From the NCBI GenBank assembly GCA_019637615.1, contig JAHBVJ010000039.1:1-64000 (forward strand): 64,000 nt of DNA, read 5' to 3'. Below the pieces are notes generated by a model. The model did no database searches. It had not been told where the DNA came from and saw only the letters and a list, made by a program, of their open reading frames with translations. This document shows positions 27,200 through 43,030 of this stretch, in pieces. The stretch's first letter is position 1; each line of letters starts with the position of its first letter. Made by a program: the position numbers and the translations under genes. This stretch comes from Anaerolineae bacterium. GTDB taxonomy: Bacteria > Chloroflexota > Anaerolineae > Aggregatilineales > UBA2796.

Positions 27200-27260
27200 A
27201 CTATCCTTCTATCCTCAACTTTGTTATGCACCGTCTTGTCGATGATAGAAAGTGCTGCGT

Positions 27261-28115
27261 ATGCTTCAAATCACCGATGTCAAAGTCGTCTATCCAAACG
27301 GCAACGAAGCGCTGAAATCAGTCAGTTTCACGGCACAAAAAGGCGAAATCGTCGCTATCATCGGGCGTTCCGGCGCGGGCAAGTCCACGCTCTTACGCTG
27401 CGTTAACGGGCTGCAATCATCCACGGCGGGCACGGTCATCCTCGACAATGACAATATTACATCGATGTCCGCCGCCGAACTGAACCTCGCACGTCGCAAA
27501 ATCGGCTTTATCTGGCAAGAGTACAACCTAATTGATCGGTTGCCGGTGATCACCAACGTGTTAACTGGTCGTTTGGGCTACAACCGGGGCATTAGCTCTT
27601 GGCTTGGTTACTTTAGCCCGCAGGATCGCGACATCGCCCTGCATAGTCTTGAACGTGTCAATATGCTGCACCGTGCAAAATTCCGTGCCGACCGTCTGTC
27701 CGGCGGTGAAAAACAGCGTGTTTCCATCGCCCGCGCCATCGCCCAAGAACCCAAAATTATCCTAGCAGATGAGCCTGTCGCCAGCCTTGATCCTGAACTT
27801 GCGGTGCAAGTTATGGGCGATTTAGCACGGGTAGCGCGTGAAGTTGGCGTCCTCACGCTAATCAATATCCATCATGTAGAACTAGCCCGTCGGTTCTGCG
27901 ACCGCATCGTAGCGATTGCGCAAGGGGTGGTCGTCTTCGATGGAAAACCTGAAGACTTAACTGATGAAGTGCTCGATAACACTTATCGCTTCGACAAAGA
28001 CAAATATGAACAGGCGGACGCGGTTGTCAGCAAGCCGCCCTCAGCCATAGACGATCTCCTGATCGATTTACAAAATACGATGAAACAGGCTGGCAATCCA
28101 TCCGCAGCAGGGTAA
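27261..28115 (+). CDS. phnC: Phosphonate ABC transporter ATPase, first cassette
   Basis: A 284-residue ABC ATPase with Walker A GRSGAGKSTLLR, signature LSGGEKQRVSIARA and Walker B IILADEPVASLDPE, plus the PhnC-type start MLQITDVKVVYPNGNEALK. It drives uptake of phosphonates or phosphite with the PhnE and PhnD proteins encoded next. ATG at 27261 is preferred over an in-frame GTG at 27252 because it matches the second PhnC start exactly. The C-terminus has a variable tail after the PhnC core. Confidence 0.93.
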   Translation: MLQITDVKVVYPNGNEALKSVSFTAQKGEIVAIIGRSGAGKSTLLRCVNGLQSSTAGTVILDNDNITSMSAAELNLARRKIGFIWQEYNLIDRLPVITNVLTGRLGYNRGISSWLGYFSPQDRDIALHSLERVNMLHRAKFRADRLSGGEKQRVSIARAIAQEPKIILADEPVASLDPELAVQVMGDLARVAREVGVLTLINIHHVELARRFCDRIVAIAQGVVVFDGKPEDLTDEVLDNTYRFDKDKYEQADAVVSKPPSAIDDLLIDLQNTMKQAGNPSAAG

Positions 28116-28123
28116 AAGCGCAT

Positions 28124-29035
28124 ATGACTTCCAATGCTCAGGCCATTGACAAGAAAAATCAGACGTCCATATCGCCCGAATCCTTGCGTGTCGAATTGCG
28201 GCGTCCTTTCCCCCAACCGAGTCTACGCGGGATATTCATCTTGCTGGTAGTGGTATTCGTGCTAGCGGTAAGCTGGAACGCATCACGCCCGACCGCCATC
28301 AACCGCATAAATGGCATCGGGGATGTTGTTAGCCATATGGCGGACTTGGTTAGGCGCATGTTCCCCGTCCAGTTTGAGTGGGCACGCAACACCGAACGAA
28401 CGATTAACATTCTGGGCAACGAAATCACCATCGGCTGGCCTCTGATTGTGACAGCCGTCATCGAGACGATAGAAATGGCAATTATCGGTACCTTAGGCGC
28501 GGTGGTGTTGTCGATGCCGATCAGCCTGCTGGCAGCTAAAAATACGTCACCCCATCCGCTTATCTATCAGATCACACGGTTGACGTTGAATTTTATGCGT
28601 TCAATTCCAGAACTGATCTGGGGGCTGTTGTTCGTAGTTGGTGTCGGCCTTGGCCCGTTCGCCGGTGTGCTGGCACTGGCATTTGGCTCCATAGGCTCGA
28701 TGTCGCGCATCTATGCCGAAGCCATCGAGCAAATCGATCCACAGCAGGTATTGGCAGTCCGAGCGACCGGGGCTACTTCTATCCAGACCTTTTTATATTC
28801 GGTTATCCCGCAAGCGCTGCCCCTCTTGATTTCGTACTCGATCATCTATTTCGAGAGCAATGTCCGGCACGCCACCATTCTCGGCTTGGTAGGCGCAGGT
28901 GGCATCGGCCTCAAGCTGTGGGAATACACCGGGTTGGGGAACTATCCTCGCTTAATGGGCACCGTCATTGTCCTTGTGGTGGCAGTCACCATCATTGATA
29001 GGTTCAGCAATCAGATCCGTCAGCGTTTCATCTAG
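28124..29035 (+). CDS. phnE: Phosphonate ABC transporter permease, first cassette
   Basis: 303 residues with about six membrane helices after a cytoplasmic N-terminus. The EAA loop reads EAIEQIDPQQVLAVRATGA and is followed by FLYSVIPQALPLLISY, as in PhnE; it couples the permease to PhnC. It starts 8 bases after the phnC stop, so the genes are co-transcribed. It forms the membrane channel with PhnC at the cytoplasmic face. Confidence 0.92.
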   Translation: MTSNAQAIDKKNQTSISPESLRVELRRPFPQPSLRGIFILLVVVFVLAVSWNASRPTAINRINGIGDVVSHMADLVRRMFPVQFEWARNTERTINILGNEITIGWPLIVTAVIETIEMAIIGTLGAVVLSMPISLLAAKNTSPHPLIYQITRLTLNFMRSIPELIWGLLFVVGVGLGPFAGVLALAFGSIGSMSRIYAEAIEQIDPQQVLAVRATGATSIQTFLYSVIPQALPLLISYSIIYFESNVRHATILGLVGAGGIGLKLWEYTGLGNYPRLMGTVIVLVVAVTIIDRFSNQIRQRFI

Positions 29036-29072
29036 CGCGACGTGGTTTTAATAAGTACTCAAGGAGAGACAC

Positions 29073-30104
29073 ATGCACAAGTTTCAACGTATTCTTCTTT
29101 CTCTAGTTGTGGCGGCACTGCTCGTCGTTGGTACGGGCGTAGCCACCAAAGCGCAAGACAAAACAGGCTGGCCTGAAACTTTCATCATCGGCGTGTACCC
29201 CGGTGACAACATTGAGAAGGCCATTGCCTCTAACCAACCGCTGGCGGACTATCTGACCAAGACGCTTGGTGTCCGTACCGTGATCATTACTGGCACCAGC
29301 TATAACGCCGTGATCGAAGCCATGCGCGCTGGTCGTGCAGATGCCTTCGAAGTCGGCCCCTTCTCGTACACGCTGGCGGCTGCCGTTGCCAACGCCGATG
29401 CTATCGCCGTTGCTGACTACAGCACGACCGTGAACTTAGAGCGTATCCCCGGCTACTACAGCGTCATGATTACCTTGAAGGGTTCTGGCATCAAGAGCAT
29501 CGCTGACCTGAAGGGTAAGACCTTCTCGTTCACCGATCCCGCTTCTACCAGCGGCTACTTGGTTCCTTCCAACGACATTATGGCTGATCAGAAATTCACG
29601 GATGTCTCGGAAATCGATGGCTTCGTTGGCAAGACTGTGTTTGCGGGCAATCATCCCGCCTCCGTACTCTCGGTTGCGCAAGGCAAGACGGATGCTGGTG
29701 CAACGTTTGATGACAACCTCGCGGATCAGGTCAAGGCTGGCGCTGCCAAAATTTGCGGTGCAACCGATGATCACGCCACTAACCCGTTCCACAGTGCTCT
29801 GACTCAAGAGCAGATCATGAAGTTCTATGACGAATGCCCAGATGGTGATGTGGTTGTTTTCCATCAGTCGCCCCTGATCCCGCAGACACCGTTCGCCATC
29901 AACAAGGATCTGCCTGAGTCGTTCAAGGCAGCCGTGACCGATGCGCTGCTGAACATCTATAAGGACACTGAGTTGGTGAACGCGTTGGGTCGCTATTACG
30001 TTGATCCGCGTACCATCAACAAAGAGTTGAAGACCATCGACGCGCTCTACGATCCTCTGCGTGAGATTGCCACGAATCTCAAGATCGACCTCACCAAGCG
30101 CTAA
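29073..30104 (+). CDS. phnD: Phosphonate-binding protein, first cassette
   Basis: 343 residues. A signal peptide of about 26 residues ends VATKAQ without a lipobox Cys. The binding-protein body has EVGPFSYTLAA and FTDPASTSGYLVPSN, the Ser-Thr-Ser loop that grips the phosphonate oxygens in PhnD-type proteins, followed by FAGNHPASVLSVAQGKTDAGATFDDN. AAGGAGAGA precedes the ATG. It is about as similar to the second PhnD as to distant relatives, so the two may prefer different phosphonates or phosphite. Confidence 0.92.
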   Translation: MHKFQRILLSLVVAALLVVGTGVATKAQDKTGWPETFIIGVYPGDNIEKAIASNQPLADYLTKTLGVRTVIITGTSYNAVIEAMRAGRADAFEVGPFSYTLAAAVANADAIAVADYSTTVNLERIPGYYSVMITLKGSGIKSIADLKGKTFSFTDPASTSGYLVPSNDIMADQKFTDVSEIDGFVGKTVFAGNHPASVLSVAQGKTDAGATFDDNLADQVKAGAAKICGATDDHATNPFHSALTQEQIMKFYDECPDGDVVVFHQSPLIPQTPFAINKDLPESFKAAVTDALLNIYKDTELVNALGRYYVDPRTINKELKTIDALYDPLREIATNLKIDLTKR

Positions 30105-30126
30105 AAACTACGCAACATCAAGTTGG

Positions 30127-30155
30127 GTCGGCGTGATATTCATTACGCCGACTTT
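30127..30155 (+). terminator. Intrinsic terminator after the first phnCED cassette
   Basis: GTCGGCGT (30127-30134) pairs with ACGCCGAC (30145-30152) around a 10-base loop, followed by TTTAGTT. It closes the first transporter transcript 23 bases after the phnD stop and directly precedes the second direct-repeat array. Confidence 0.75.
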
Positions 30156-30156
30156 A

Positions 30157-30200
30157 GTTGCCAGCCAGCTCACCTTCACATTAACGACAGTTAGCAGTAT
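30157..30200 (+). promoter_or_regulatory. PHO-box-like 11-bp direct repeats before the second phn cassette
   Basis: Hexamers at 11-bp steps: GTTGCC (30157), GCTCAC (30168), CATTAA (30179) and GTTAGC (30190). The last unit and its right flank, GTTAGCAGTATCC, match GTTAGCACTATCC in the first array at all but one base. The two cassettes thus appear to share a regulator. Confidence 0.5.
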
Positions 30201-30329
30201 CCACCTCGTCTTTTAACCATTTTCCCCTAAATATTCCCTGCGCCGTTCAACATCCGTTATTTCGACGCGAGTATTCTCTGTGCGGTTGATGCAGAACCTG
30301 TTTCGGGTGTAAGAGGGACTACCTGCCAT

Positions 30330-31181
30330 ATGCTCCAAATCACCGATGTCAAAGTTGTTTATCCAAACGGCAACGAAGCGCTGAAATCGATCAGTCTGAC
30401 GGCGCAAAAGGGCGAGATCATCGCCATCATCGGGCGTTCAGGCGCGGGCAAGTCCACGCTTCTACGCTGCATCAACGGCTTGCAGCGCACGGCGGCGGGC
30501 AACGTGATCCTTGATGGTGAGGACATCACCAAACTAAACGACCGCGAACTACATACGCTGCGTCGCCATATCGGCTTTGTCTGGCAAGAATATAACCTTG
30601 TTGATCGTCTGCCTGTGATCACCAACGTGTTGACCGGACGGCTTGGCTACAACCGCAACATGGGTAGCCTGTTTGGCTATTTTGACCGCAAGCATCGCGA
30701 GATCGCGTTGCGTAATATCGAGCGCGTGAATCTGTTACATCGTGCGCAGCAGCGTGCCGATAGCCTATCCGGCGGCGAAAAACAGCGCATCTCGATTGCC
30801 CGTGCCATCTCGCAGCAGCCCAAACTACTGCTGGCGGACGAACCGGTCGCTTCGCTCGATCCGGAGTTGGCATGGCAAGTGATGAGAGACTTGGCGCGCG
30901 TTGCCCGTGAAGACGGCGTGCTGACGCTGATCAATATTCATCAGGTCGATCTGGCGCGCGCCTTTTGTGACCGCATCATCGGCATCGCGCAGGGTGTGGT
31001 TGTCTTCGATGGCAAGCCGCTCGATCTGACCGAGCACATACTCGATGAGATTTACCGCTTCGACAAGCCCAAAAATGATGTGATTTCCAACTTGAGTGAC
31101 GAATTAGCGCGCCAGCGCATGAACGTTCCCATTCCATCTAACGCCACGCTTGGCGCGGCAACCGAGGTGACACGTGGCTAA
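30330..31181 (+). CDS. phnC: Phosphonate ABC transporter ATPase, second cassette
   Basis: A 283-residue ABC ATPase that is a close paralogue of the first PhnC: same start MLQITDVKVVYPNGNEALK, Walker A GRSGAGKSTLLR, signature LSGGEKQRISIARA and Walker B LLLADEPVASLDPE. The C-terminal tail after YRFDKPKND differs. It energises the second phosphonate transporter. Its stop overlaps the GTG start of phnE by 8 bases. Confidence 0.93.
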   Translation: MLQITDVKVVYPNGNEALKSISLTAQKGEIIAIIGRSGAGKSTLLRCINGLQRTAAGNVILDGEDITKLNDRELHTLRRHIGFVWQEYNLVDRLPVITNVLTGRLGYNRNMGSLFGYFDRKHREIALRNIERVNLLHRAQQRADSLSGGEKQRISIARAISQQPKLLLADEPVASLDPELAWQVMRDLARVAREDGVLTLINIHQVDLARAFCDRIIGIAQGVVVFDGKPLDLTEHILDEIYRFDKPKNDVISNLSDELARQRMNVPIPSNATLGAATEVTRG

Positions 31182-32127
31182 CCTCGTAAAAGTCGAATCA
31201 GCCCCCGCCGCTATCGACAAAGAAAAGATCAGCGATATTCGTGATCGGTTGCTAAATCCCTTCCCGCGCCTCAGTCTTGGCTCACTGTCGCTAATTCTGC
31301 TGACGATTGTCATCCTGTGGTGGGCAGCGTCGGGCGTGCAGCCAGATTGGGAACAGATCAATCGCGGTAAGACGCCCCTCGACGCGATTATCGAGTTCGT
31401 TGGCAATCTATTCCCACCACAGTGGGAAATGCTGCACGTTCACATCGGTACCGACGCCAACGGCGCGATTACCGTCCAGCAAGATACCAGTTTGCAGTTG
31501 GAAAAAGACCTCGATTATCAATTCCAATATCCCCTTGTCCTCAAATTTATCGTGGAAACCATCCAGATGGCGCTGATCGGGACGATTGTTGGGGTGTTTC
31601 TGTCCTTTCCGTTTGCGCTCTTAGCCGCCCGCAATACCGCCCCCAATCCAGCTATCTACTACGTGACCCGTTTGATCCTGAACGCCATTCGTTCAGTGCC
31701 GGAGATCGTCTGGGCGTTGATCTTTGTGGCAGCGGTCGGGCTTGGCCCCTTCAGCGGCGTGCTGGCGCTGGCAGTCGCAGGCATCGGCTCCAAAGGCAAG
31801 CTGTATGCGGAAGCGATTGAAGCCATCGATCCGCAGCAGGTGATGGCGGTACGGGCAACGGGCGCAGGACGCTTACAAGTCTTCGCTTATGGCGTAGTGC
31901 CACAAGCGCTGCCGCTGGTGCTGTCGTACACGCTGCTCAGTTTCGAATCCAACGTGCGTGCCGCCACCATCCTCGGCTTGGTTGGCGCGGGTGGAGTCGG
32001 ATTTTTGCTCACCAAGTACCTGAACTTGTTCCAGTTCAAGGAGCTGATGGGAACGGTGATTTTACTCGTCGTGGCTGTCACTGTCATCGACCGTTTCAGT
32101 GATTATCTGCGCAAGAAATTCATCTAG
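31174..32127 (+). CDS. phnE: Phosphonate ABC transporter permease, second cassette
   Basis: 317 residues starting at a GTG that overlaps phnC. It has about six membrane helices and the EAA loop EAIEAIDPQQVMAVRATGA. Compared with the first PhnE it carries an extra hydrophilic stretch of about 20 residues after the first helix (around residues 85-110, HIGTDANGAITVQQDT), probably exposed outside. It forms the channel with the second PhnC. Confidence 0.92.
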   Translation: MANLVKVESAPAAIDKEKISDIRDRLLNPFPRLSLGSLSLILLTIVILWWAASGVQPDWEQINRGKTPLDAIIEFVGNLFPPQWEMLHVHIGTDANGAITVQQDTSLQLEKDLDYQFQYPLVLKFIVETIQMALIGTIVGVFLSFPFALLAARNTAPNPAIYYVTRLILNAIRSVPEIVWALIFVAAVGLGPFSGVLALAVAGIGSKGKLYAEAIEAIDPQQVMAVRATGAGRLQVFAYGVVPQALPLVLSYTLLSFESNVRAATILGLVGAGGVGFLLTKYLNLFQFKELMGTVILLVVAVTVIDRFSDYLRKKFI

Positions 32128-32152
32128 CACTATGTACAGGAGAGACTCGCAT

Positions 32153-33181
32153 ATGAAGGCATTTCGCACTATTGTACTATTGGCTGTTGCTGCTGCCCTG
32201 TTGATTGGTGGCTCCAACCGTCCCGTCGCCGCGCAAGAAGACCGCGCGGGTTGGCCTAGCAACTTCATCGTCGGCATTTTCGCGGGTGAAGATCCCGGTA
32301 AAGCGCTCAGCGGCTTCGAGCCGGAACGCGCCTATCTCGAAGAAAAACTCGGCATCCGTACCATCATGTACACCGGTGGCAGCTACACCGCCGTGATCAC
32401 CGCCATGAAGGCTGGTCGCGTGGATGGTTTTGAAGTCGGCCCCTTCAGCTACCTGCTTGCAGCTCAGGAAGCCAACGCCGAAGCCCTCGCCGTGCAAGCC
32501 GCTGGTACGACCAAGTCGGGTGCGCTCGTCAATCCTGACATCAAGCCCTACTACTACAGCGTGATTGTCACCAAGAAGAAGTCCGGCATCAAGACGCTGG
32601 CTGATCTCAAAGGTAAGTCGTTCAGCTTCGTTGATCCTGCCTCGACTTCTGGCAATCTGATGCCCCGTACCCTGATCATCAAGGAAACTGGCCTTGATCC
32701 TGATAAGGACATGAAGACCATTTTCGCGGGTTCGCATCCCACCTCCGTAACCGCCATTTGGTCTGACAAGGTAGACGCTGGCGCGACCTACATCGGCAAC
32801 CTCGTCACGATGGCGAACGAAGGTCAGGTTGACCTGTGCTGGTTCAGCGACGGCGTGATCGATGAGAAGCGCAGTGCCGACGACCTCGCCACACTGTACG
32901 ACACCTGCAAGGATGATCAGCTCGTCGTCATCGCCATGACCGACCCCATCCCCAACACACCATTCGCCGTTAACAAGAACCTGCCGGAATCCTTCAAGAA
33001 GGCGGTCAAGGATGCCCTGCTCGCCATCAAGGACGACCCCGAACTGGTCGCCAAGCTCGGCAACTGGTACGTTGATCCCGCCGCCACCGACACCAGCCTG
33101 AAGGCCACTGACAACTTCTATGATGGTCTGCGCGACGTTGCCAAAACGCTCGGCCTAGAGCTGAAGAGTTTGGTTAAGTAA
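32153..33181 (+). CDS. phnD: Phosphonate-binding protein, second cassette
   Basis: 342 residues. The ATG at 32153 is chosen because AGGAGA lies nine bases upstream and the signal peptide begins there (MKAFRTIVLLAVAAALL), ending PVAAQ without a lipobox. Body motifs: EVGPFSYLLAA, FVDPASTSGNLMPR and FAGSHPTSVTAIWSDKVDAGATYIGN. The phosphonate-gripping DPASTSG loop is the same as in the first PhnD, but flanking residues differ widely, so another ligand range is plausible. Confidence 0.92.
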   Translation: MKAFRTIVLLAVAAALLIGGSNRPVAAQEDRAGWPSNFIVGIFAGEDPGKALSGFEPERAYLEEKLGIRTIMYTGGSYTAVITAMKAGRVDGFEVGPFSYLLAAQEANAEALAVQAAGTTKSGALVNPDIKPYYYSVIVTKKKSGIKTLADLKGKSFSFVDPASTSGNLMPRTLIIKETGLDPDKDMKTIFAGSHPTSVTAIWSDKVDAGATYIGNLVTMANEGQVDLCWFSDGVIDEKRSADDLATLYDTCKDDQLVVIAMTDPIPNTPFAVNKNLPESFKKAVKDALLAIKDDPELVAKLGNWYVDPAATDTSLKATDNFYDGLRDVAKTLGLELKSLVK

Positions 33182-33211
33182 TCGTAAAATCAATTCGTGG
33201 GTAAATATGTT

Positions 33212-33247
33212 ATGGTGGTTGGGTCGTTCGACCAACCACCATTTTTT
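33212..33247 (+). terminator. Strong intrinsic terminator between transporter and C-P lyase genes
   Basis: The arms 33212-33226 and 33229-33242 form a 14-bp stem with one bulged G, closed by a tight GTCG-TT-CGAC tip and followed by a T6 run (33242-33247). It ends 10 bases before the phnG start, so phnG-M expression needs read-through or an internal promoter. Confidence 0.85.
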
Positions 33248-33257
33248 CGGAGTCACG

Positions 33258-33686
33258 GTGACTAATCGACAGTATTCCCAGAGCGAGTACCTCAGCGTCC
33301 TCAGCCAAGCTCAAGTTGAGCCATTGAAACTACTAGCCGAAGCCGTTATTCCGGCGTTGGAACCGATCACCGTCATCTACAACCGCACCGGGCTGGTGAT
33401 GCTGCCCTACCGCGACTCAGCACAGGGCAGCACCTTCCATCTGGGCGAAGTCCTGATCGCGGAAGCGCGCATCCAAGCGGCAGGCGCGGAAGGCTACGGC
33501 GCGTGTCTCGGTCACGATCTGGAACAATCCTTGGCAATCGCCATCCTCGACACCGCGTTGACGGTTGGGCAGCATGTCGAGCCGATCACCGCCTTCATCG
33601 CAGCACAAGCGCAGTTGCAGCATGAGGCACAAGAATCGCTGCTGCGTAATGTGGAAAGCACCCGCGCCGAAATGGAGACGTTCTGA
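33258..33686 (+). CDS. phnG: C-P lyase core subunit PhnG
   Basis: 142 residues from a GTG at 33258 with CGGAG just upstream; an in-frame ATG at 33207 would place translation through the terminator stem and is rejected. PhnG forms part of the PhnGHIJ core, in which PhnI with PhnG and PhnH attaches the phosphonate to ribose 5-triphosphate at the expense of the adenine of ATP. The GEVLIAEARIQ and EGYGACLGHDLEQSLAIAILD segments are typical. Its stop overlaps the phnH start by one base. Confidence 0.9.
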   Translation: MTNRQYSQSEYLSVLSQAQVEPLKLLAEAVIPALEPITVIYNRTGLVMLPYRDSAQGSTFHLGEVLIAEARIQAAGAEGYGACLGHDLEQSLAIAILDTALTVGQHVEPITAFIAAQAQLQHEAQESLLRNVESTRAEMETF

Positions 33687-34246
33687 TGACGCCTGTTACG
33701 CCTGCCTTCACCGACGCTGAAGCCCACACGCGCGAAACATTCCTCGCGCTGATGTGGGCAATGAGCTATCCGGGGCGCGTGCATACGCTGCCTACGCCAG
33801 ACGATGACACCTTGGCAGCTTTTCAAGCCATCGGTGACACCTTGCTCGATCTCGAAGTCAGCTATTACACGCCAGACGCCGTGCTAAATCGCCATTTGCA
33901 GCGCACCACCAGCCGCTTCCTCGAACCATCGCAAGCGGGTTATTTATTTTTCCCCTCGGTAGGCGAAGATCACATCGCTGAACTCGCGCAGGCCAAGCTC
34001 GGCACCATGCTGTATCCCGACGAATCCGCCACCCTGATCCTCGGCTGCACCTTCGACGGTACGCCGATCACGCTAACTGGCCCCGGCGTCAACGGCACGG
34101 CACCGATCACGGTTGGATCGCTGCCTGCTGCTGTTTGGGACTGGCGCGAGAAAACCCGACGCTATCCGCTCGGTTGGGACATCATCCTTGTGGCGGGTAA
34201 TCAGGTCATCGGCATACCGCGCAGCACCAGCATCGAGATGGGCTAG
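33686..34246 (+). CDS. phnH: C-P lyase core subunit PhnH
   Basis: 186 residues starting MTPVTPAFTDAEAHTRETF, followed by MWAMSYPGRVHTLP and, near the middle, YPDESATLILG and LTGPGVNG, the usual PhnH blocks. PhnH is a PLP-fold-like protein without catalytic Lys and is a structural and activating part of the PhnGHIJ complex. The start overlaps the phnG stop (TGATG), giving coupled translation. No residue loss is evident. Confidence 0.92.
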   Translation: MTPVTPAFTDAEAHTRETFLALMWAMSYPGRVHTLPTPDDDTLAAFQAIGDTLLDLEVSYYTPDAVLNRHLQRTTSRFLEPSQAGYLFFPSVGEDHIAELAQAKLGTMLYPDESATLILGCTFDGTPITLTGPGVNGTAPITVGSLPAAVWDWREKTRRYPLGWDIILVAGNQVIGIPRSTSIEMG

Positions 34247-34257
34247 GAAGGCGAATT

Positions 34258-35391
34258 ATGGTTTATGTAGCAGCCAAAGGTGGCGAACAAGCCATCCTGC
34301 ATTCGGAGCAGTTGTACCATTATCTGAACGGCGGTCTGAGCTTGGATCGTGTGCGCGACATCGAGCGCCATCTTCCCTATCTAATTGACCGCGTGATGGG
34401 CGAAAGTTCCTTGTACGCGCCTGAATTGGCGGCGTTGGCGTTGGCGCAGACCGGCGGCGATTTATACGAGGCTGTCCTGCTCCTCCGTGCCTATCGCTCC
34501 ACGCAGCCCCGTGTCGCCTACGCCGAACCCGTCATCGCGGATCGGATGATCACGCTGCGGCGCATCTCGGCGGCCTTCAAAGACATTCCCGGCGGGCAAA
34601 TTCTCGGCCCCTCGCTCGACTACAGTCACCGTCTGCTGCGTATGGATATTCTGGACGGCGCACAGGACACAGTAGCGCCGCCCGCTGCGGACGCCACCGC
34701 CAAACTCGCCTCGCCAACCTACCCGCTGGTCGCGGATTGGCATCGGGCGAACGGCGTGTTGCCCCACATCGAACCCGACGCTACCGATCCCGTCGCGCTG
34801 CCGGACATCACCAAAGATCCCTTGCTGATGCCCGCCCCGCGCGCGCACCGTTTGCAATCCTTAGCGCGGGCGGATTCGGGCGGCGTACTGGCGCTCGGCT
34901 ATTCGGTCATGCGCGGCTACGGCATGTCGCACCCGACGGTCAACGAACTGCGCCTCGCGCACGCCGATGTCGAGATCAAGCATCCCGTCACGGGTGAAGT
35001 GTTCAGCGCGGGCAAGGTACGCGTCAGCCAGTGCGAAGTCGTCACGGAAGCCAGCAGCGGCAAAAACGCCGGACACGGCAAGCGCATCGGCTTCGCGGCG
35101 ACGATGGGTTGGAACGAAGTCAAGATCATCGCCGCCTCCACGCTCGATCTCGCCATGAACGAATCCGATCCGCACCCCGCGCATAACGAAGAATTCGTCC
35201 TCTACCACACCGAAGCAGTGGAATCGTCGGGCTTCTGCATCCATTTCAAACTGCCGCACTACGTCACCTTCGCCAGCAGCATGGACGCCCTGCGCGGCGT
35301 GATGGCGCAAACCTACGGCGGCGATGCGCAAGCCGAAACAGCATCGAAAGAAGAACCTGTATCCAGCGCTGAGGCCGTGACAGGCAAATGA
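34258..35391 (+). CDS. phnI: C-P lyase core subunit PhnI
   Basis: 377 residues with the family blocks MVYVAAKGGEQAI, LALAQTGGDLYEAVLLLRAYRST, DIPGGQILGPSLDYSHRLL and EEFVLYHTEAVESSGF. PhnI is the nucleosidase-like subunit that swaps the adenine of ATP for the phosphonate. The metal-binding pair equivalent to E. coli His328/His333 is kept as His329 and His334 in IHFKLPHYVTF, at the PhnI/PhnJ interface. A 40-residue tail is extra. The stop overlaps the phnJ start (ATGA). Confidence 0.95.
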   Translation: MVYVAAKGGEQAILHSEQLYHYLNGGLSLDRVRDIERHLPYLIDRVMGESSLYAPELAALALAQTGGDLYEAVLLLRAYRSTQPRVAYAEPVIADRMITLRRISAAFKDIPGGQILGPSLDYSHRLLRMDILDGAQDTVAPPAADATAKLASPTYPLVADWHRANGVLPHIEPDATDPVALPDITKDPLLMPAPRAHRLQSLARADSGGVLALGYSVMRGYGMSHPTVNELRLAHADVEIKHPVTGEVFSAGKVRVSQCEVVTEASSGKNAGHGKRIGFAATMGWNEVKIIAASTLDLAMNESDPHPAHNEEFVLYHTEAVESSGFCIHFKLPHYVTFASSMDALRGVMAQTYGGDAQAETASKEEPVSSAEAVTGK

Positions 35392-36350
35392 GCGAACAAC
35401 CCATGAACACACAAACGCCTTCCCTCGCCGCCTTGACGCACCAGCGCCAAGATTACGCCTATGGCTTCTTGGACGATTTCGCCAAGCGCGAACTCCGCCG
35501 CCGCACGCTCAAGGCCATCGCTGTACCGGGCTATCAAGTACCCTATGCCAGCCGCGAACTGCCCATCGCGCGCGGCTGGGGCACGGGCGGCTTGCAAGTC
35601 ACCCTGAGCCTCGTCGGGCCAGACAGCGTCGTCAAGGTCATCGATCAAGGCGCGGATGACTCGGTCAACGCGGTCAATTTGCGGCGTTTCATCAGCCGCA
35701 TGAGTGGCGCACAAACCACAACGGACACCGTACAAGCCACCTTGATCCAGAGCCGTCACCGCATCCCCGAAGAAATCCTGCGCGAAGGCCAAGCACTCAT
35801 TTTGCAAGTGCCCGATCCCGAACCCTTGCGCGGCGTGGCGAAAGATACCTCGCTGGCGGCGCAGCTCCACGCTGATGCCGATTACGGGCAGATGTGGTTG
35901 GTGCTGTACGAGCAGTTGGTGCGCTATAACCAGTATGTACAGGGCGCGAGCTATCCCTCGCTCGTCAACGGGCGCTACGTGATCAGCCCTAGCCCGATCC
36001 CGCGTTGGGATACGCCCAAACTGCATCAAGCCCCGCATCTGACGCTGCTCTCGGCAGGGCGCGAAAAGCGCCTGTACGCCGTCCCGCCCTACACCGACGT
36101 TTATCCGCTGGAATTCACCGATGTGCCCTTCCGCGTGGAAGATCAGCGCACATGGGTGGATCGTGTTACGGGCGTGCTGCACAAATTCATGACCGAAATC
36201 CCGCAGCCAGACGGCTCCGTCCAGTACGAAATCTCGGATACGGGCTACATCGAAAAGCTCAAGCGCAAACTGAGCGATCCCAACGCGCCGCTCGGAGCCA
36301 CCTATTTTGACGACGAAGGGAAATTCTACATCGATGGCTATCTCAAGTAA
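35388..36350 (+). CDS. phnJ: PhnJ homologue without any cysteine
   Basis: A 320-residue full-length PhnJ by sequence: RRTLKAIAVPGYQVPY, GWGTGGLQVTLSLVG, VIDQGADDSVNAVNLR, QSRHRIPEEIL, VNGRYVISPSPIPRWDTPKL and AGREKRLYAVPP. PhnJ normally binds a [4Fe-4S] cluster, cleaves SAM and breaks the C-P bond through a glycyl and a thiyl radical. The glycyl-radical site is kept (Gly48 = E. coli Gly32), but the positions of Cys241, 244, 266 and 272 are Val257, Val260, Ile282 and Ile288, and no Cys occurs anywhere. A constant offset of 16 residues holds throughout, so this is not misalignment. The C-terminal tail of about 32 residues is longer than usual. The mechanism is therefore unclear. Confidence 0.93.
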   Translation: MSEQPMNTQTPSLAALTHQRQDYAYGFLDDFAKRELRRRTLKAIAVPGYQVPYASRELPIARGWGTGGLQVTLSLVGPDSVVKVIDQGADDSVNAVNLRRFISRMSGAQTTTDTVQATLIQSRHRIPEEILREGQALILQVPDPEPLRGVAKDTSLAAQLHADADYGQMWLVLYEQLVRYNQYVQGASYPSLVNGRYVISPSPIPRWDTPKLHQAPHLTLLSAGREKRLYAVPPYTDVYPLEFTDVPFRVEDQRTWVDRVTGVLHKFMTEIPQPDGSVQYEISDTGYIEKLKRKLSDPNAPLGATYFDDEGKFYIDGYLK

Positions 36351-37155
36351 CGGCAATCACCGCGTGTACACCGCGCCGCGCCTCATCCAGTCCAAGCCGT
36401 TGGTGCAGGTACGCGGCCTAGCCCGCAGCTATGGCAAGATCGCGGCGGTGGCGGATGTCAGCTTCGATGTTTATCCGGCGGAAATCCTCGGCATCGTGGG
36501 CGAGTCCGGTTCCGGCAAATCGACGGTACTGCGCCTGTTGAATCTCGAAGAACCTGCCACCGCTGGCACCTATTCGCTGGACATGCCCGGTTACGCAGGC
36601 GTCGATCTGTTCGCGCTGGATCGCTTCGCGCAGCGTGACGTGCGCATCTACAACATCGGGATCGTCTACCAGAATCCGCATTTAGGGCTGCGTATGAAGT
36701 ACACCAGCAGCGGCAACGTAGCCGAACGCCTGCTGATCACGGGCGAACGCACCTTCGCCACGCTGCGCCAAGCCGCCAAGGAATCGCTAGAAGCCTCCGA
36801 ATTCCCGATCAACCGCATGGACGACCAACCTAACAAGCTCTCTGGCGGGATGCAGCAGCGCGTGCAGTTAGCCAAAGCGATTGCCCTCAAGCCGCGTCTC
36901 CTGCTGCTCGATGAGCCGACGACGGGGCTAGATGTCTCGGTGCAAGCGCTGGTACTCGATACGCTCAAACGCCTCCAGCGCGAACGCCAGATCACCATCA
37001 TCATCGTCTCGCACGATCTCGGCGTGATCCGCATGTTGGCGGATCGTGTCATCGTGATGCGGCATGGGCGCGTGGTCGAGTCCGGCCTGACCGATCAGGT
37101 CTTGGAAGACCCGCAAGATGCGTATACACAGCAATTGGTTCATGCGAAGTTATAG
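36334..37155 (+). CDS. phnK: C-P lyase ABC protein PhnK
   Basis: 273 residues with Walker A GESGSGKSTVLR, Q-loop VYQNPHLGLRM, signature LSGGMQQRVQLAKA and Walker B LLLLDEPTTGLD. PhnK binds as a dimer on the PhnJ face of the core complex and drives turnover through ATP hydrolysis. The ATG at 36334 lies inside the end of phnJ (17-base overlap). A TTG at 36307 would lengthen it by nine residues. The N-terminus of about 25 residues before QVRGLARSYG is longer than usual. Confidence 0.93.
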   Translation: MAISSNGNHRVYTAPRLIQSKPLVQVRGLARSYGKIAAVADVSFDVYPAEILGIVGESGSGKSTVLRLLNLEEPATAGTYSLDMPGYAGVDLFALDRFAQRDVRIYNIGIVYQNPHLGLRMKYTSSGNVAERLLITGERTFATLRQAAKESLEASEFPINRMDDQPNKLSGGMQQRVQLAKAIALKPRLLLLDEPTTGLDVSVQALVLDTLKRLQRERQITIIIVSHDLGVIRMLADRVIVMRHGRVVESGLTDQVLEDPQDAYTQQLVHAKL

Positions 37156-37164
37156 AGGTTGCCG

Positions 37165-37887
37165 ATGTCGCTGCTAACGGTACAGGGCTATACCAAACGG
37201 TTCACCATTCACCATCTGAACCGCGAGATCGCCGTCTTTGAAAATCTCGAATTCACCGTCGCGCCCGGTCAATTCACGCTCGTGGTCGGGCCGAACGGCG
37301 CGGGCAAATCGACGCTGCTGCGCTGCTTGTACCGCACCTATCTGCCGACGGCGGGCAGCGCGGTCTATGCCTCGCAGTACGGCGACATCGATCTGGCGAC
37401 GGCGGCGGATGTGGACATCAGCGTGCTGCGCAATACCGAGATCGGCTTCGTCACGCAGTTTTTGCGCCCGCGTCCACGCATCAGTGCCTTGGAATTGGTG
37501 GCGGAACCGTTGATCGGTTCAGGCATCGCGTGGAACGACGCCTTGCAGCAAGCCGAAGCCATGTTAACCTTGTTCAATCTCAAGCCTGAGTTATGGCACG
37601 CCTATCCAACCACCTTTTCCGGCGGCGAACAGCAAAAAGTCAACTTGTCGCGGGCGCTCATCCGTCCCCGTCGGCTGCTGCTCTTGGACGAACCCACCGC
37701 CTCGTTGGATGTGCCCACGCGCACGGCGCTGGTCTCGCGGTTAGCCGAACTCAAGGCGCAAGGGGTGGCGATGATTGGCATCTTCCATCATGCCGAAGAT
37801 GTCACAGCGCTGGTCGATTCGAATATTTACATTAGTGCGGCGGTGGATGCGTCGCTGGCGAGGGAGATTGAAAATGTGGTTGAGTGA
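37165..37887 (+). CDS. phnL: C-P lyase ABC protein PhnL
   Basis: 240 residues with Walker A GPNGAGKSTLLR, signature FSGGEQQKVNLSRA and Walker B LLLLDEPTASLD. PhnL joins PhnK on the core complex and is required for the first, nucleosidase step in E. coli. It starts 9 bases after phnK and its end overlaps the phnM start by 14 bases, so the operon continues without a gap. Confidence 0.93.
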   Translation: MSLLTVQGYTKRFTIHHLNREIAVFENLEFTVAPGQFTLVVGPNGAGKSTLLRCLYRTYLPTAGSAVYASQYGDIDLATAADVDISVLRNTEIGFVTQFLRPRPRISALELVAEPLIGSGIAWNDALQQAEAMLTLFNLKPELWHAYPTTFSGGEQQKVNLSRALIRPRRLLLLDEPTASLDVPTRTALVSRLAELKAQGVAMIGIFHHAEDVTALVDSNIYISAAVDASLAREIENVVE

Positions 37888-39070
37888 TTTTCGCGTCGTC
37901 CTGCCGGATCAGGTGCTGGAACATGGTTCCGTGCGGGTCGAAGATGGACGCATTGCTGAGATCATCGATACGCCGTGTACAGAAGCCGCTGTGGTCGGCA
38001 CTGGCCTCACGCTGATCCCCGGCTTGATCGATCTGCACGGGGATATGTTGGAGCGCGAGATCGAGCCGCGTCCCGGCGTGCCGTTTCCCACCGATCTAGC
38101 GCTGCTCGAACTCGACAAACGGATGGCGGGCGCGGGCATTACCACCTGTTATGCTGCCCTGTCCTTCCAATGGGATCCCGAAGATAGCAAGCGCTCGGAT
38201 AAAGTCACCCGCGCCATCATCAACACCGTCAACGACATGCGCGAACATCTGCTGGTGGATACCTTTATCCACGCGCGTTTCGAAGTCACCAATGCGCAGG
38301 TCGGCGGCTTACTCACCGAACTGCTGGACGCGGGCAAAATCCACCTCGTCTCGATCATGGATCACACGCCGGGGCAGGGGCAGTACAAAGATGTCAAGAA
38401 GTACATCGAATTCGTCACCAAATGGCTCGGCGTGACGGAAGAAGACCTCGACCCCGAATTTCTGATGAACCGCATCCAAGCCCGAATCGCCAAACAGCAA
38501 GCCCGCCAGTGGAGTTGGACAGTGGTCGAAGACGTGATGCAGATCGCCAAGGCACGTAACGTGCCCGTCGCCTCGCACGATGACGACACCCAAGAAAAGG
38601 TCGATCATCTGGCGGAACTCGGCGTATCGATCAGCGAATTTCCCGTCACGTTGGAAGCCGCCCAAGCCGCCAAATCGCATAACATGCACGTCGTCATGGG
38701 TGCGCCGAACGCTCACCGCGCCTATTCCTATTCCGGCAATCTGAGCGCCATCGACGCCATCAAGGCGGGCGTGGTCGATACGCTGGCGGTGGATTATCTG
38801 CCCGCCGCTTTGCTCCATGCGCCCTTCGACATCGCGGATAAGGGCATTTTATCGTTGCCTGAAGCCATCAAACTCGTCAGCCAGAATCCCGCCGACGCCG
38901 TTTTCCTCACCGATCGCGGCAGGATCGAAGTCGGCAAACTCGCCGATCTCGCCTGTGTCGAAGTCGAGCCGCACCGCCGCGTGCGCGGGACGCTGCGGCA
39001 CGGTCAACCGATTTTCTGGGACGCCTCGATGGCGAAACGCGGCACGTTGACCATGATCGAACAGCGTTAA
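37874..39070 (+). CDS. phnM: Ribose 1-methylphosphonate 5-triphosphate diphosphatase PhnM
   Basis: 398 residues of the amidohydrolase fold: LTLIPGLIDLHGDMLEREIEPRPG with the first metal His, followed by TCYAALSF and VASHDDDTQEKVDHLAELG, and HVVMGAPNAHRAYSYSGNLSA. The enzyme removes diphosphate from the phosphonylated ribose triphosphate before C-P cleavage. The start at 37874 is chosen because MWLSDFRVVLPDQVL is the family N-terminus; the upstream frame lies within phnL. Confidence 0.94.
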   Translation: MWLSDFRVVLPDQVLEHGSVRVEDGRIAEIIDTPCTEAAVVGTGLTLIPGLIDLHGDMLEREIEPRPGVPFPTDLALLELDKRMAGAGITTCYAALSFQWDPEDSKRSDKVTRAIINTVNDMREHLLVDTFIHARFEVTNAQVGGLLTELLDAGKIHLVSIMDHTPGQGQYKDVKKYIEFVTKWLGVTEEDLDPEFLMNRIQARIAKQQARQWSWTVVEDVMQIAKARNVPVASHDDDTQEKVDHLAELGVSISEFPVTLEAAQAAKSHNMHVVMGAPNAHRAYSYSGNLSAIDAIKAGVVDTLAVDYLPAALLHAPFDIADKGILSLPEAIKLVSQNPADAVFLTDRGRIEVGKLADLACVEVEPHRRVRGTLRHGQPIFWDASMAKRGTLTMIEQR

Positions 39071-39096: not shown

Positions 39097-39753
39097 ATGC
39101 AGCATATTGAGCACTTAGCGCCCGCCACGATTGACAAACTCGGCAAAAAATCGCTGTCCGATCAGCCCACCATCCACGAGCCGTGCTATATCCTGAACAG
39201 CGATCTCGGCGCGTGGACGGAGATCGGGCGTAACACAATTATCGTGGAGTCCAGCCTCGCGGACTACAGCTATTGTGATGGCGACGTGTCGATGATCTAC
39301 ACCACCGTCGGCAAATTCGCCTCGATAGCCTCGCACGTGCGGATCAACCCCGGCAATCATCCCATGGAGCGCGTCAGCCAGCACCACTTTACCTATCGTC
39401 GTCGTCAGTACGGCTTCGATGACCATGACGACACGGCTTTCTTCGAGTGGCGGCGCGAGCATCACTGCGAGATCGGGCATGATGTCTGGCTCGGTCACGG
39501 CGTGACGGTCATGGCGGGCATCAAGATCGGCACAGGCGCGGTGGTCGGTGCGGGTGCGGTCGTCACCAAAGACATCGCGCCCTACGAGATCGCCGTAGGT
39601 GTTCCCGCCAAGCCGATGCGCAAGCGCTTCACGGATGCGCAGATCGAGGCACTGCTGCGGATCGCGTGGTGGGACTGGGATCATGCTACAATCAAGGTGC
39701 GTTTCAACGACTTCTTGGATATGCCAACCTTTATCGAGAAATACAGGGAATGA
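39097..39753 (+). CDS. Hexapeptide-repeat acyltransferase of phn operons
   Basis: 218 residues forming a left-handed beta-helix, with hexapeptide turns around residues 45-160 (IGRNTIIVESSLADYSYCDGD, IGHDVWLGHGVTVMAGIKIG, GAVVGAGAVVTKDIAPYEIAVGVPAKPMRKRF). Such proteins occur in C-P lyase operons (the phn hexapeptide family) and are presumed to acylate aminophosphonates or related compounds, like PhnO, but their substrate is unproven. It begins 26 bases after phnM and its TGA overlaps the next ATG. Confidence 0.85.
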   Translation: MQHIEHLAPATIDKLGKKSLSDQPTIHEPCYILNSDLGAWTEIGRNTIIVESSLADYSYCDGDVSMIYTTVGKFASIASHVRINPGNHPMERVSQHHFTYRRRQYGFDDHDDTAFFEWRREHHCEIGHDVWLGHGVTVMAGIKIGTGAVVGAGAVVTKDIAPYEIAVGVPAKPMRKRFTDAQIEALLRIAWWDWDHATIKVRFNDFLDMPTFIEKYRE

Positions 39754-40497: not shown

Positions 40498-41817
40498 TCA
40501 CCGCGCTGTATCAGAAGTAATACTTTGCTCGATGAACTGTGCCGCCTTGGTGAAGCATTCGAGCGGCGCACGCACGTACCCCGCCCCGATCTGCCCGATG
40601 CCCGGTAAGCGGTGCGCGATCCCCGTCGTGATGATCGGCTGAATCCCAGTCTCGATCACCTTGTAAATATCCACGCCGCTTGGCGTACCGCGCCCGCCGA
40701 GCATCGCTAGGTCGAAGTGCGTGCTTTGCTCCACCGTGATCTTGTACATTTCCATCATCGCGGCGGTCAGATACTCCACCGTCCCGCCGATGAACTCGGT
40801 GATCGCGGGCGCACCGCCCACCGCGAAGCCGCCCAAGCCGCTGGCCTCGGTGATCGCGCTGTCGCCCAGATCGCGGTTGGCATCTGCTGCCGTGAAGCCG
40901 GGAAAATAATGCCCCGTGACGACGGGTGACGGCGCGGTGAACCAACGTCCCTGCACGCGGATGCTGAACTCCACACCGTTACGCGAAAACGCCGTCACGA
41001 TGCTGGCGTTGGGGACGGCCTCCGCTGCCAACCATGCTGCCTTGCACGAGGCCATCGTTAGGTTCAAGAAGAAGTAATCGCGCCCGATCATGAATGACAG
41101 CACTTCATCGATTTCGGCAGTGGTGAGCGAAGTCTTCATCAAGCCGGGGATCAGTGCTTGGATCAACAAACATAGCGCGGCACGGTTGCGGCTGTGGCAT
41201 TCATCGCCCATATGTAGCGCCTCGCGCACCAATGGGAAGATCGGCAGTGGCGCGAGTCGTAACACAGCTTCCCGCAAACGCGGAGCCAACACCGCCTGTA
41301 TCCAGCGCAGTCGCTCGATCACGGCGGGGCTGTTCGCGCCGTAGCGCAGCGCAGCGCCGGGTCCTTCATTCAGATTACTGTAGGCGCGCGTGTGGTTTAC
41401 TGAGTCTTCGATCACCCACACGGGCATCGACGCCGAGATCACGCCTGCCATCGGCGCGATGGCATCATGCTGATGATTCGGTGCGATGCGGATTTCGCCC
41501 CGTTCCAGCAGAACACGCGCCGTTTCCAGATCATGCGCCAGCCCTTCATACACCGCCGCGCCCATGATCGCGCCCTGCATCGGCCCCGCCACATCCGCCC
41601 ATGCAATCGGCGGCCCCGCGTGCAAAATCAGGTTATCTGCCATATTGGGGATCACGTCGCGGGCGCGTTGAATATCGATGATGGCGGGGGCGGCTTGGTT
41701 AAAGATGCTCATCACGCGCTGGTTAGCAAGGTCGCGTCGATCATGCTGAAGGATCACCGGAAGCTCCTCGGCTGGTAAACGGCGAAATTCGCGCAGTGTA
41801 GCGCGGGCAGTGAACAT
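40498..41817 (-). CDS. DUF1116 (AllG-like) protein
   Basis: 439 residues with the blocks LHAGPPIAWADVAGPMQGA, APNHQHDAIAPMAGVISASMPVWVI, ALHMGDECHSRNRAA and MLGGRGTPSGVDI. These are characteristic of DUF1116, the family of AllG (YlbE), a subunit of the oxamate carbamoyltransferase of ureide fermentation. The partners allF and allH are not seen, so the role here is uncertain. A frame extension to 41841 begins with TTG. Neither start has a clear ribosome site. It is convergent with the phn operon. Confidence 0.75.
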   Translation of the reverse strand: MFTARATLREFRRLPAEELPVILQHDRRDLANQRVMSIFNQAAPAIIDIQRARDVIPNMADNLILHAGPPIAWADVAGPMQGAIMGAAVYEGLAHDLETARVLLERGEIRIAPNHQHDAIAPMAGVISASMPVWVIEDSVNHTRAYSNLNEGPGAALRYGANSPAVIERLRWIQAVLAPRLREAVLRLAPLPIFPLVREALHMGDECHSRNRAALCLLIQALIPGLMKTSLTTAEIDEVLSFMIGRDYFFLNLTMASCKAAWLAAEAVPNASIVTAFSRNGVEFSIRVQGRWFTAPSPVVTGHYFPGFTAADANRDLGDSAITEASGLGGFAVGGAPAITEFIGGTVEYLTAAMMEMYKITVEQSTHFDLAMLGGRGTPSGVDIYKVIETGIQPIITTGIAHRLPGIGQIGAGYVRAPLECFTKAAQFIEQSITSDTAR

Positions 41818-41977
41818 ACTTGAATGGAGCCAAACTAACAATAGACATAATAACTAAAATCAGCCTTGGACAATTCTTGTAGTCTGCACAATGGCACTAT
41901 CGATGCCCTTTGACTACACTCGATTCCAATTTCACGATCCACTAGGCTAGTCAGGCCACCACAAAGGACGCACCGCT

Positions 41978-42361
41978 ATGCCGTTTGAACTGTTCGTCAA
42001 TGGGACTCTGATGCGCGGTCTCAAGCTGAATCCCAACATGGGCACTTCAGAATTCTTGGGCGAGTTCCGCACCGCGCCCTACTATCGCGCCTTCACCATC
42101 AACGACGTACATCCCGGCATGTTCCGTGTGAATGACGGCGAGTCGGGCGGGGCCAGCATCTGGGGCGAGTTGTACATGGTGGATGACGAAACGTGGGCGA
42201 AGATTGAAGCAGGCGAACCGCCGAATCTGTATCGCGGCATGATCGAGCTGGAAGACGGGCGCAAGGTCTACGGCATCTTGTACCCGCGTGAACTGGCGGA
42301 CGGTCATTACCCGGAGATCACGCAGTACGGCGGTTGGCGGGCTTACTGGGCGACGAAGTAG
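41978..42361 (+). CDS. AIG2/gamma-glutamylcyclotransferase-like protein
   Basis: 127 residues. The start PFELFVNGTLMRG matches the (Y/V)NGTLMRG loop of AIG2/GGCT-fold proteins, and EAGEPPNLYRGMIELEDGRKVYGILYP continues the barrel. Glu77-type acid residues are present, but the catalytic assignment is uncertain. Allophanate hydrolases have a related C-terminal domain of this type. It sits directly before the biuret-hydrolase-like gene (9-base gap), which supports a role in ureide breakdown. Confidence 0.7.
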   Translation: MPFELFVNGTLMRGLKLNPNMGTSEFLGEFRTAPYYRAFTINDVHPGMFRVNDGESGGASIWGELYMVDDETWAKIEAGEPPNLYRGMIELEDGRKVYGILYPRELADGHYPEITQYGGWRAYWATK

Positions 42362-42370
42362 GGGGCGCAG

Positions 42371-43030
42371 ATGTTAACCGTACACGCTGAACCATACGAA
42401 TTTGCTTTTGACCCGACTCACACCGCGCTCATCATCATCGACATGCAGCGCGATTTTGTCGAACCCGGTGGATTCGGGGAAATGCTCGGCAATGATGTCT
42501 CGCAGTTGCGCACCGCCATCGAGCCGATCAAGCGGGTGCTGGCGAAGGCGCGCACGGTCGGCATGATGGTCATTCACACGCGCGAAGGCCACCGCCCCGA
42601 TCTGGCAGATTTGCCGGAAGCCAAACGCGCGCGCGGGCATTTATCCTGCGGGATCGGTGACGCGGGGCCGATGGGGCGCATTCTCGTGCGTGGCGAACAC
42701 GGGCACGACATCATCGATGAACTCAAGCCGCTGCCCACCGAACCGATCATCGACAAACCCGGTAAAGGCAGCTTCCACGCCACCGACCTCCACGCCATCC
42801 TTGCTAATCGTGGCATCACGCACCTGATCGTGACCGGCGTCACGACCGAAGTTTGCGTCCACACCACCGTGCGCGAGGCCAATGATCGCGGTTACGAATG
42901 CCTTGTGCTCTCGGACTGCGTGGCGTCGTACTTCCCCGAATTTCAGCAGATCGGCCTGAAGATGATCGCGGCACAGGGTGGCATTTTCGGATGGGTCGCG
43001 CCCTCATCCGCACTGCTCACGGTGTTATAG
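42371..43030 (+). CDS. Isochorismatase-family cysteine hydrolase, biuret amidohydrolase-like
   Basis: 219 residues. The catalytic set is visible: Asp in ALIIIDMQRDF, Lys in IIDKPGKGSFHATDL and Cys in GVTTEVCVHTTVREANDRGYEC. The blocks HTREGHRPDLADLP and IGDAGPMGRILVRGEHGHDII closely resemble what I recall of biuret hydrolases (BiuH). Such enzymes release ammonia from biuret to give allophanate. Substrate choice among biuret, ureidoacrylate and others is not provable here. Cytoplasmic. Confidence 0.75.
   Translation: MLTVHAEPYEFAFDPTHTALIIIDMQRDFVEPGGFGEMLGNDVSQLRTAIEPIKRVLAKARTVGMMVIHTREGHRPDLADLPEAKRARGHLSCGIGDAGPMGRILVRGEHGHDIIDELKPLPTEPIIDKPGKGSFHATDLHAILANRGITHLIVTGVTTEVCVHTTVREANDRGYECLVLSDCVASYFPEFQQIGLKMIAAQGGIFGWVAPSSALLTVL

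Follow-up and report, generated by a model that had tools for sequence, protein, structure and literature searches.

Can a C-P lyase work when its PhnJ subunit contains no cysteine? This question is raised by a window of 64,000 nucleotides from an Anaerolineae bacterium (contig JAHBVJ010000039.1; "the window" means this whole stretch). In oxic waters, C-P lyase is a source of methane, which it sets free from methylphosphonate, and it also breaks down phosphonates of the glyphosate type. In PhnJ of E. coli, Cys241, Cys244 and Cys266 bind the cluster and Cys272 attacks phosphorus (PMC7916636). The mechanism has been disputed since structures placed this cysteine site about 30 Å from Gly32, the proposed radical glycine, a discrepancy that the authors call unresolved (PMC9947105; PMC7916636) and for which further work was called for (PMC7916636).

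A cysteine-free PhnJ in a complete operon

The original prediction was that the gene at 35388-36350 encodes a PhnJ of 320 residues without any Cys. The translation indeed has 320 residues and zero Cys, it matches PF06007 (PhnJ) with 394 bits (E 3e-118; gathering cutoff 25), and its sequence matches in the PDB are E. coli PhnJ chains only. The gene is flanked by phnI and phnK within an operon of the order phnCED-CED-GHIJKLM, with these features:

27252..28115, + strand, PhnC-like phosphonate ABC transporter ATPase, set 1 (ABC_tran; same family as the C of other operons)
28124..29035, + strand, PhnE-like permease, set 1 (ORF; homologues in 29 of 45 Cys-poor loci, see below)
29073..30104, + strand, PhnD-like substrate-binding protein, set 1 (TIGR01098 above cutoff, TIGR03431 below)
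30330..31181, + strand, PhnC-like ATPase, set 2 (homologues in other operons)
31174..32127, + strand, PhnE-like permease, set 2 (BPD_transp_1)
32099..33181, + strand, PhnD-like substrate-binding protein, set 2 (clusters with PhnD)
33207..33686, + strand, phnG (PF06754, 66 bits; TIGR03293, 78 bits, below cutoff)
33686..34246, + strand, phnH (PF05845, 123 bits; TIGR03292 above cutoff)
34258..35391, + strand, phnI (PF05861, 378 bits; alignment to 7z15_C)
35388..36350, + strand, phnJ, Cys-free (PF06007; translation)
35529..35531, + strand, Gly48 codon (E. coli Gly32, proposed glycyl radical site), retained (alignment)
35754..35759, + strand, Arg123-His124 codons (E. coli R107-H108, PRcP pocket), retained (alignment; pocket from PMC9947105)
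35805..35807, + strand, Gln140 codon (E. coli Q124, PRcP pocket), retained (alignment)
36159..36161, + strand, Asp258 codon, replaces Cys241 (alignment)
36168..36170, + strand, Thr261 codon, replaces Cys244 (alignment)
36231..36233, + strand, Ile282 codon, replaces Cys266 (alignment)
36249..36251, + strand, Ile288 codon, replaces Cys272, the proposed thiyl (alignment)
36334..37155, + strand, phnK, without Cys and without CxxC insert (TIGR02323 best match, 235 bits, below cutoff)
37159..37887, + strand, phnL (TIGR02324 best match, 234 bits, below cutoff)
37874..39070, + strand, phnM (NF011988 and TIGR02318 above cutoff)
39097..39753, + strand, phn-associated hexapeptide transferase (TIGR03308, 276 bits, above cutoff)

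All C-P lyase subunit genes of the window are open and phnGHIJKLM stand in one operon, in agreement with the earlier description of an operon that is otherwise complete in G, H, I, K, L and M. Subunits and order are the same as in the E. coli C-P lyase (PhnGHIJKLM; 4xb6, 7z15-7z19); unlike in E. coli, no phnN or phnP adjoins the operon.

Two tandem phnCED-type transporter sets precede phnG (27252-33181). Downstream of the operon is a tyrosine-phosphatase-like gene (PF13350; 39750-40490), a homologue of which is found upstream of phnG in a Dehalococcoidia locus with the four PhnJ cysteines (CCCC; L075). An AllG-like gene, an allophanate-hydrolase C-terminal domain and an isochorismatase at 40498-43030 form a possible purine/urea catabolic cluster beside phn, and a SelA (selenocysteine synthase) gene lies at 44952-46325. 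No tRNA genes were found within the window.

Alignment to E. coli PhnJ places Gly32 at Gly48, as predicted, so that the radical-site residue is present, its radical function being only putative. The prediction had also given Gly32 and the four cysteines a common offset of +16. This holds for Gly32, for Cys266 (Ile282) and for Cys272, where the thiyl position is occupied by Ile288; Cys241 and Cys244, however, correspond to Asp258 and Thr261 and not to Val257 and Val260, because a one-residue insertion precedes the motif and both fall one residue further on. None of the three cluster ligands is therefore a cysteine. PhnJ is filed by motif among the radical SAM enzymes with C-terminal cysteine motifs (PhnJ, ThiC); the window protein is homologous to PhnJ, but its membership in this class fails on sequence because the defining cluster motif is absent.

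Recurrent loss of the PhnJ cysteines

We compared 234 distinct PhnJ, a sample in which relatives of the window protein are over-represented and which should not be read as a census. Two loci were left out of the count of losses: L216, at a contig end, and L270 (G1514:C2:180998-181812), in which an in-frame stop breaks the phnJ of a Cys-containing lineage. All four Cys are present in 154 PhnJ, and the other 80 are referred to here as Cys-poor. Cys244 and Cys272 are missing jointly in 80 of 80, with Cys244 replaced by Thr in 49 and by Ser in 31, and by no other residue. Cys266 is missing in 61 and present in 19 (the CTCM/CTCL type of Caryophanaceae), and Cys241 is present in 77, the remaining three, with Asp, being the window protein, L046 and L133. 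With zero Cys, the window protein stands at the far end of a broader Cys-poor type in which Cys241 is mostly present. The Caryophanaceae hold the series CCCC, CTCM and CTTM within a single family.

A sequencing error was rejected as the cause, since L046, from an independent Anaerolineae MAG (79% identical), also has zero Cys and Asp at the same position. Chance loss was rejected as well: 154 of the 234 PhnJ have all four Cys and the others lose them clade-wise. Two divergent Chloroflexota operons (L037 in G013, L038 in G231) keep the four PhnJ Cys and are without the PhnI H219 motif (QRQDP/QRSDP).

In a PhnJ tree built with the cysteine domain left out, the window protein belongs to a clade of 37 rows, clade A, all of which are Cys-poor (support 98/84). 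Its members come from Chloroflexota, Alphaproteobacteria, one Verrucomicrobiota MAG and, at the base, a Thermus thermophilus plasmid, and they have their own fixed substitutions and a C-terminal extension. A Bacillota Cys-poor group (21 rows; SH-aLRT 86 in a quick tree) is nested among Cys-containing PhnJ. A third case, L083, is less secure and comes from a small MAG contig. The loss therefore arose at least twice, and probably three times. The prediction had proposed looking for a clade with conserved substitutes, and such a clade was found, with only Ser or Thr at Cys244.

Retained pocket, fold and selection

PRcP, 5-phosphoribosyl 1,2-cyclic phosphate, was modelled at the Zn site of the E. 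coli complex, where PhnI H328 and H333 and PhnJ R107, H108, Q124 and loop 47-50 bind it, and PhnI H219 joins them in the open state (PMC9947105). Among the Cys-poor PhnJ, R107, H108 and Q124 are present in 80 of 80 and Gly32 and loop 47-50 in 79 of 80, and PhnI H219, H328 and H333 are present in every aligned Cys-poor locus. The window encodes all three PhnI histidines as well as PhnJ R107, H108 and Q124, the Zn ligands being His225, His329 and His334 of its PhnI (E. coli 219, 328 and 333; alignment to 7z15_C).

An AlphaFold2 model of the window PhnJ (pLDDT 89) reproduces the fold of E. coli PhnJ, also in the C-terminal domain (rmsd 1.4-1.5 Å over 273-275 residues, Z 37, TM 0.93-0.95 by target length), and the Cys-less C-terminal domain itself is modelled with pLDDT >90. 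The window thus shares with the E. coli enzyme the fold, the PhnI Zn ligands, the PRcP pocket residues and Gly32, and differs from it in the absence of Cys241, 244, 266 and 272 and in a longer C-terminus. Clade A conserves its C-terminal domain: mean identity in this domain vs the core is 53% vs 74% in clade A and 42% vs 62% in canonical PhnJ. Zinc-ribbon proteins, for example some ribosomal proteins, occur as Cys+/Cys- pairs, and CxxCG...CSDTxxC of PhnJ likewise resembles a metal knuckle whose ligands were lost and whose fold was kept; in contrast to those pairs, the PhnJ cysteines are held to be catalytic.

The dN/dS between the window phnJ and L046 is about 0.14, with dS near saturation; it is mostly 0.01-0.14 in other Cys-poor pairs with unsaturated dS, and 0.06 in a canonical pair. 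These values are far below 1, indicating purifying selection, and together with the open operon genes they uphold the earlier claim that the gene is maintained and not decaying. The residues to which catalysis is ascribed in E. coli are missing, as would be expected if Cys-poor PhnJ had no catalytic activity and served only a structural or regulatory role, or if the operon were decaying. The low dN/dS, the open genes, the unchanged substrate pocket and the persistence of the type in many species of several phyla make this very improbable; moreover, real decay looks different, as in the interrupted phnJ of G1514. Because the four residues are gone while the pocket, the operon and purifying selection are kept, the complex most likely works without Fe-S/thiyl chemistry in PhnJ. 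We put a probability of roughly 0.55 on the reading that the Cys-poor operons encode a working C-P lyase variant whose PhnJ has neither the [4Fe-4S] cluster nor the thiyl cysteine.

Gene content of the Cys-poor operons

The Cys-poor operons are complete. In Bacillota, the order F-G-H-I-J-K-M-L-PHP-(D)-C-E-E is common to Cys-poor loci (L098, L113, L268, L269) and CCCC loci (L080, L094-L096, L117). Since the loss recurs inside otherwise unchanged operons, a change of the pathway product is less likely there. The best NCBIfam match of the PHP protein is phosphoribosyl 1,2-cyclic phosphate 1,2-diphosphodiesterase (NF041661), with 299 bits in L098 and 136 bits in L041 of clade A; because these scores are below the cutoff of 500, its role as a PRcP diesterase is a homology lead, and the low scores count against a working variant. 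A search of 31 Cys-poor genomes found neither NF041661 nor PhnP above cutoff; the window's own genome has no PhnP above cutoff either, and its closest PHP match scores a weak 108 bits. The phnX gene adjoins the operon in L047 and L049, and the L047 copy exceeds the cutoff of TIGR01422; in L167, phnN and a TIGR03223 gene are present. Judged by homology, the PRcP-diesterase homologue, PhnX and PhnN beside these operons would point to phosphonates and to the usual product. In L108 (G525:C255:362-1089), the PRcP-diesterase homologue is split over two frames, by a frameshift or an assembly error.

Gly32, kept in all but one of the Cys-poor PhnJ, is hard to explain without a glycyl radical unless it is structural, and this also speaks against a cluster-free PhnJ. 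It is what would be expected if a separate radical-SAM activase made a glycyl radical on Gly32 in trans, as in pyruvate formate-lyase, with another residue replacing the thiyl Cys272. But no extra gene family beyond the phn genes listed recurs in the operon neighbourhoods as a candidate activase, the window PhnJ has no Cys that could form a thiyl, and the carriers (Thermus, the Alphaproteobacteria concerned, Solibacillus) are largely aerobic. We consider activation in trans improbable.

A compensating cluster in other subunits was rejected, since none of G, H, I, K, L and M has a conserved set of replacement Cys. PhnK carries a CxxC-CxxC insert in 89% of canonical vs 9% of Cys-poor operons. 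This insert was rejected as a correlate of the Cys state; it tracks lineage, because E. coli-like canonical PhnK are without it and Bacillota Cys-poor PhnK have it. The insertion (CxxC-x~18-CxxC), probably a metal knuckle, stands before Walker A in most PhnK outside the E. coli-like and clade A operons, and was seen in L072-L118 and in L092, L098, L108 and L113. In the window PhnI, Cys327 (35236-35238) lies two residues before the Zn ligand His328 of the E. coli numbering (GFCIH). Almost every member of clade A has this Cys, as do some Desulfobacterota. It was rejected as compensation: it is a mark of clade A and is missing in Thermus and Bacillota.

Host genomes and coexistence with canonical PhnJ

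The host MAG, of which the window is contig 33, has 8.2 Mb (85% complete, 6.9% contamination). A second, canonical phnJ, which the prediction had named as a possible explanation, was searched for in this 85% complete MAG and not found; the window copy is the only PhnJ. PhnJ occurs in 1 of 11 genomes of the host's family and in 9 of 101 of its order, all of the Cys-poor type and in single copy. The nearest relatives of the window protein are in Anaerolineae MAGs (L046-L048), which makes an anaerolinean host probable; L049, labelled Bacteroidetes, is placed inside the Anaerolineae group, and its label is probably a binning error. No relative was found in viral contigs, and the Solibacillus C-terminus, searched against plasmids, had a single distant match.

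In draws blind to the trait, the Cys-poor type was found in 2 of 48 PhnJ-bearing Alphaproteobacteria, one of them the draw's centre genome, and in no PhnJ-bearing Bacillota apart from the Solibacillus centre. A large part of the PhnJ of Caryophanaceae is of this type, and in Staphylococcaceae all 3 PhnJ-bearing genomes have it.

Fifteen of 16 alphaproteobacterial genomes with a Cys-poor PhnJ also carry a canonical one, the exception being Haematobacter G508. Such coexistence would fit a different job for the Cys-poor type, and counts against our preferred reading. The complex might perform the same ribosyl coupling on another phosphorus compound that needs no radical cleavage, such as a phosphonate with an activated bond, a phosphonate ester, a phosphite ester or a small phosphate ester. 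Side-by-side operons are what divided labour predicts, and the fixed substitutions and C-terminal extension of clade A agree with it, so that for Alphaproteobacteria a split of substrates is a serious alternative. In Bacillota, however, the Cys-poor gene has taken the place of its canonical counterpart within the same operon, alongside the same transporter and a PRcP-diesterase homologue; the Chloroflexota, Bacillota and other carriers searched have only the Cys-poor PhnJ; and the adjoining phnX points to phosphonates. As an account of the whole type, a shift of substrate appears unlikely.

A possible cluster-free mechanism

The prediction had offered three options, namely cleavage without an own Fe-S cluster, an activating enzyme in trans, or another phosphorus compound. 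The first fits best: the operons share no recurring activase gene, and the genes that accompany them point to phosphonates and the usual product. In a working variant of this kind, PhnGHI(L) would couple the phosphonate to ribose 5-triphosphate from ATP and PhnM would take off pyrophosphate. The PhnK/PhnL ATPases would open and close the PhnI-PhnJ complex, which would then free the organic part and yield PRcP. Bond breaking would most likely take place at the fully retained PhnI-PhnJ metal/PRcP pocket, and the former Cys-bearing C-terminal domain may have kept its fold for a structural or docking role only. For the Cys-poor complexes we infer C-P cleavage, PRcP as product and the site of chemistry. 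Purified E. coli PhnJ with a [4Fe-4S] cluster and SAM is reported to cleave the C-P bond (Kamat et al.), so canonical enzymes do seem to use Fe-S/SAM chemistry, which counts against a cluster-free reaction. That the C-P bond can be broken through the PhnI-PhnJ metal/PRcP pocket, with no Fe-S cluster, SAM-derived radical or thiyl Cys in PhnJ, is a tentative proposal, to which we give somewhat less than even odds. If true, the accepted radical-SAM mechanism would be lineage-specific or incomplete.

No description of a noncanonical or Cys-less PhnJ was found in the open-access literature; subscription papers and earlier reviews lay outside this scope, so that priority is not established. A 2012 review by Villarreal-Chiu may mention noncanonical PhnJ. 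Surveys may miss the Cys-poor type because their filters select catalytic or cofactor residues, as in a marine census with databases curated in this way (PMC9381506), or the four-cysteine stretch, at which a primer set is aimed (PMC12413358).

The natural replacement of these cysteines in complete operons, including the Caryophanaceae series, is a living test: either the cysteines are dispensable or a second chemistry exists. Recurrent loss of the cysteines with the pathway intact thus offers a natural test of a disputed reaction mechanism.
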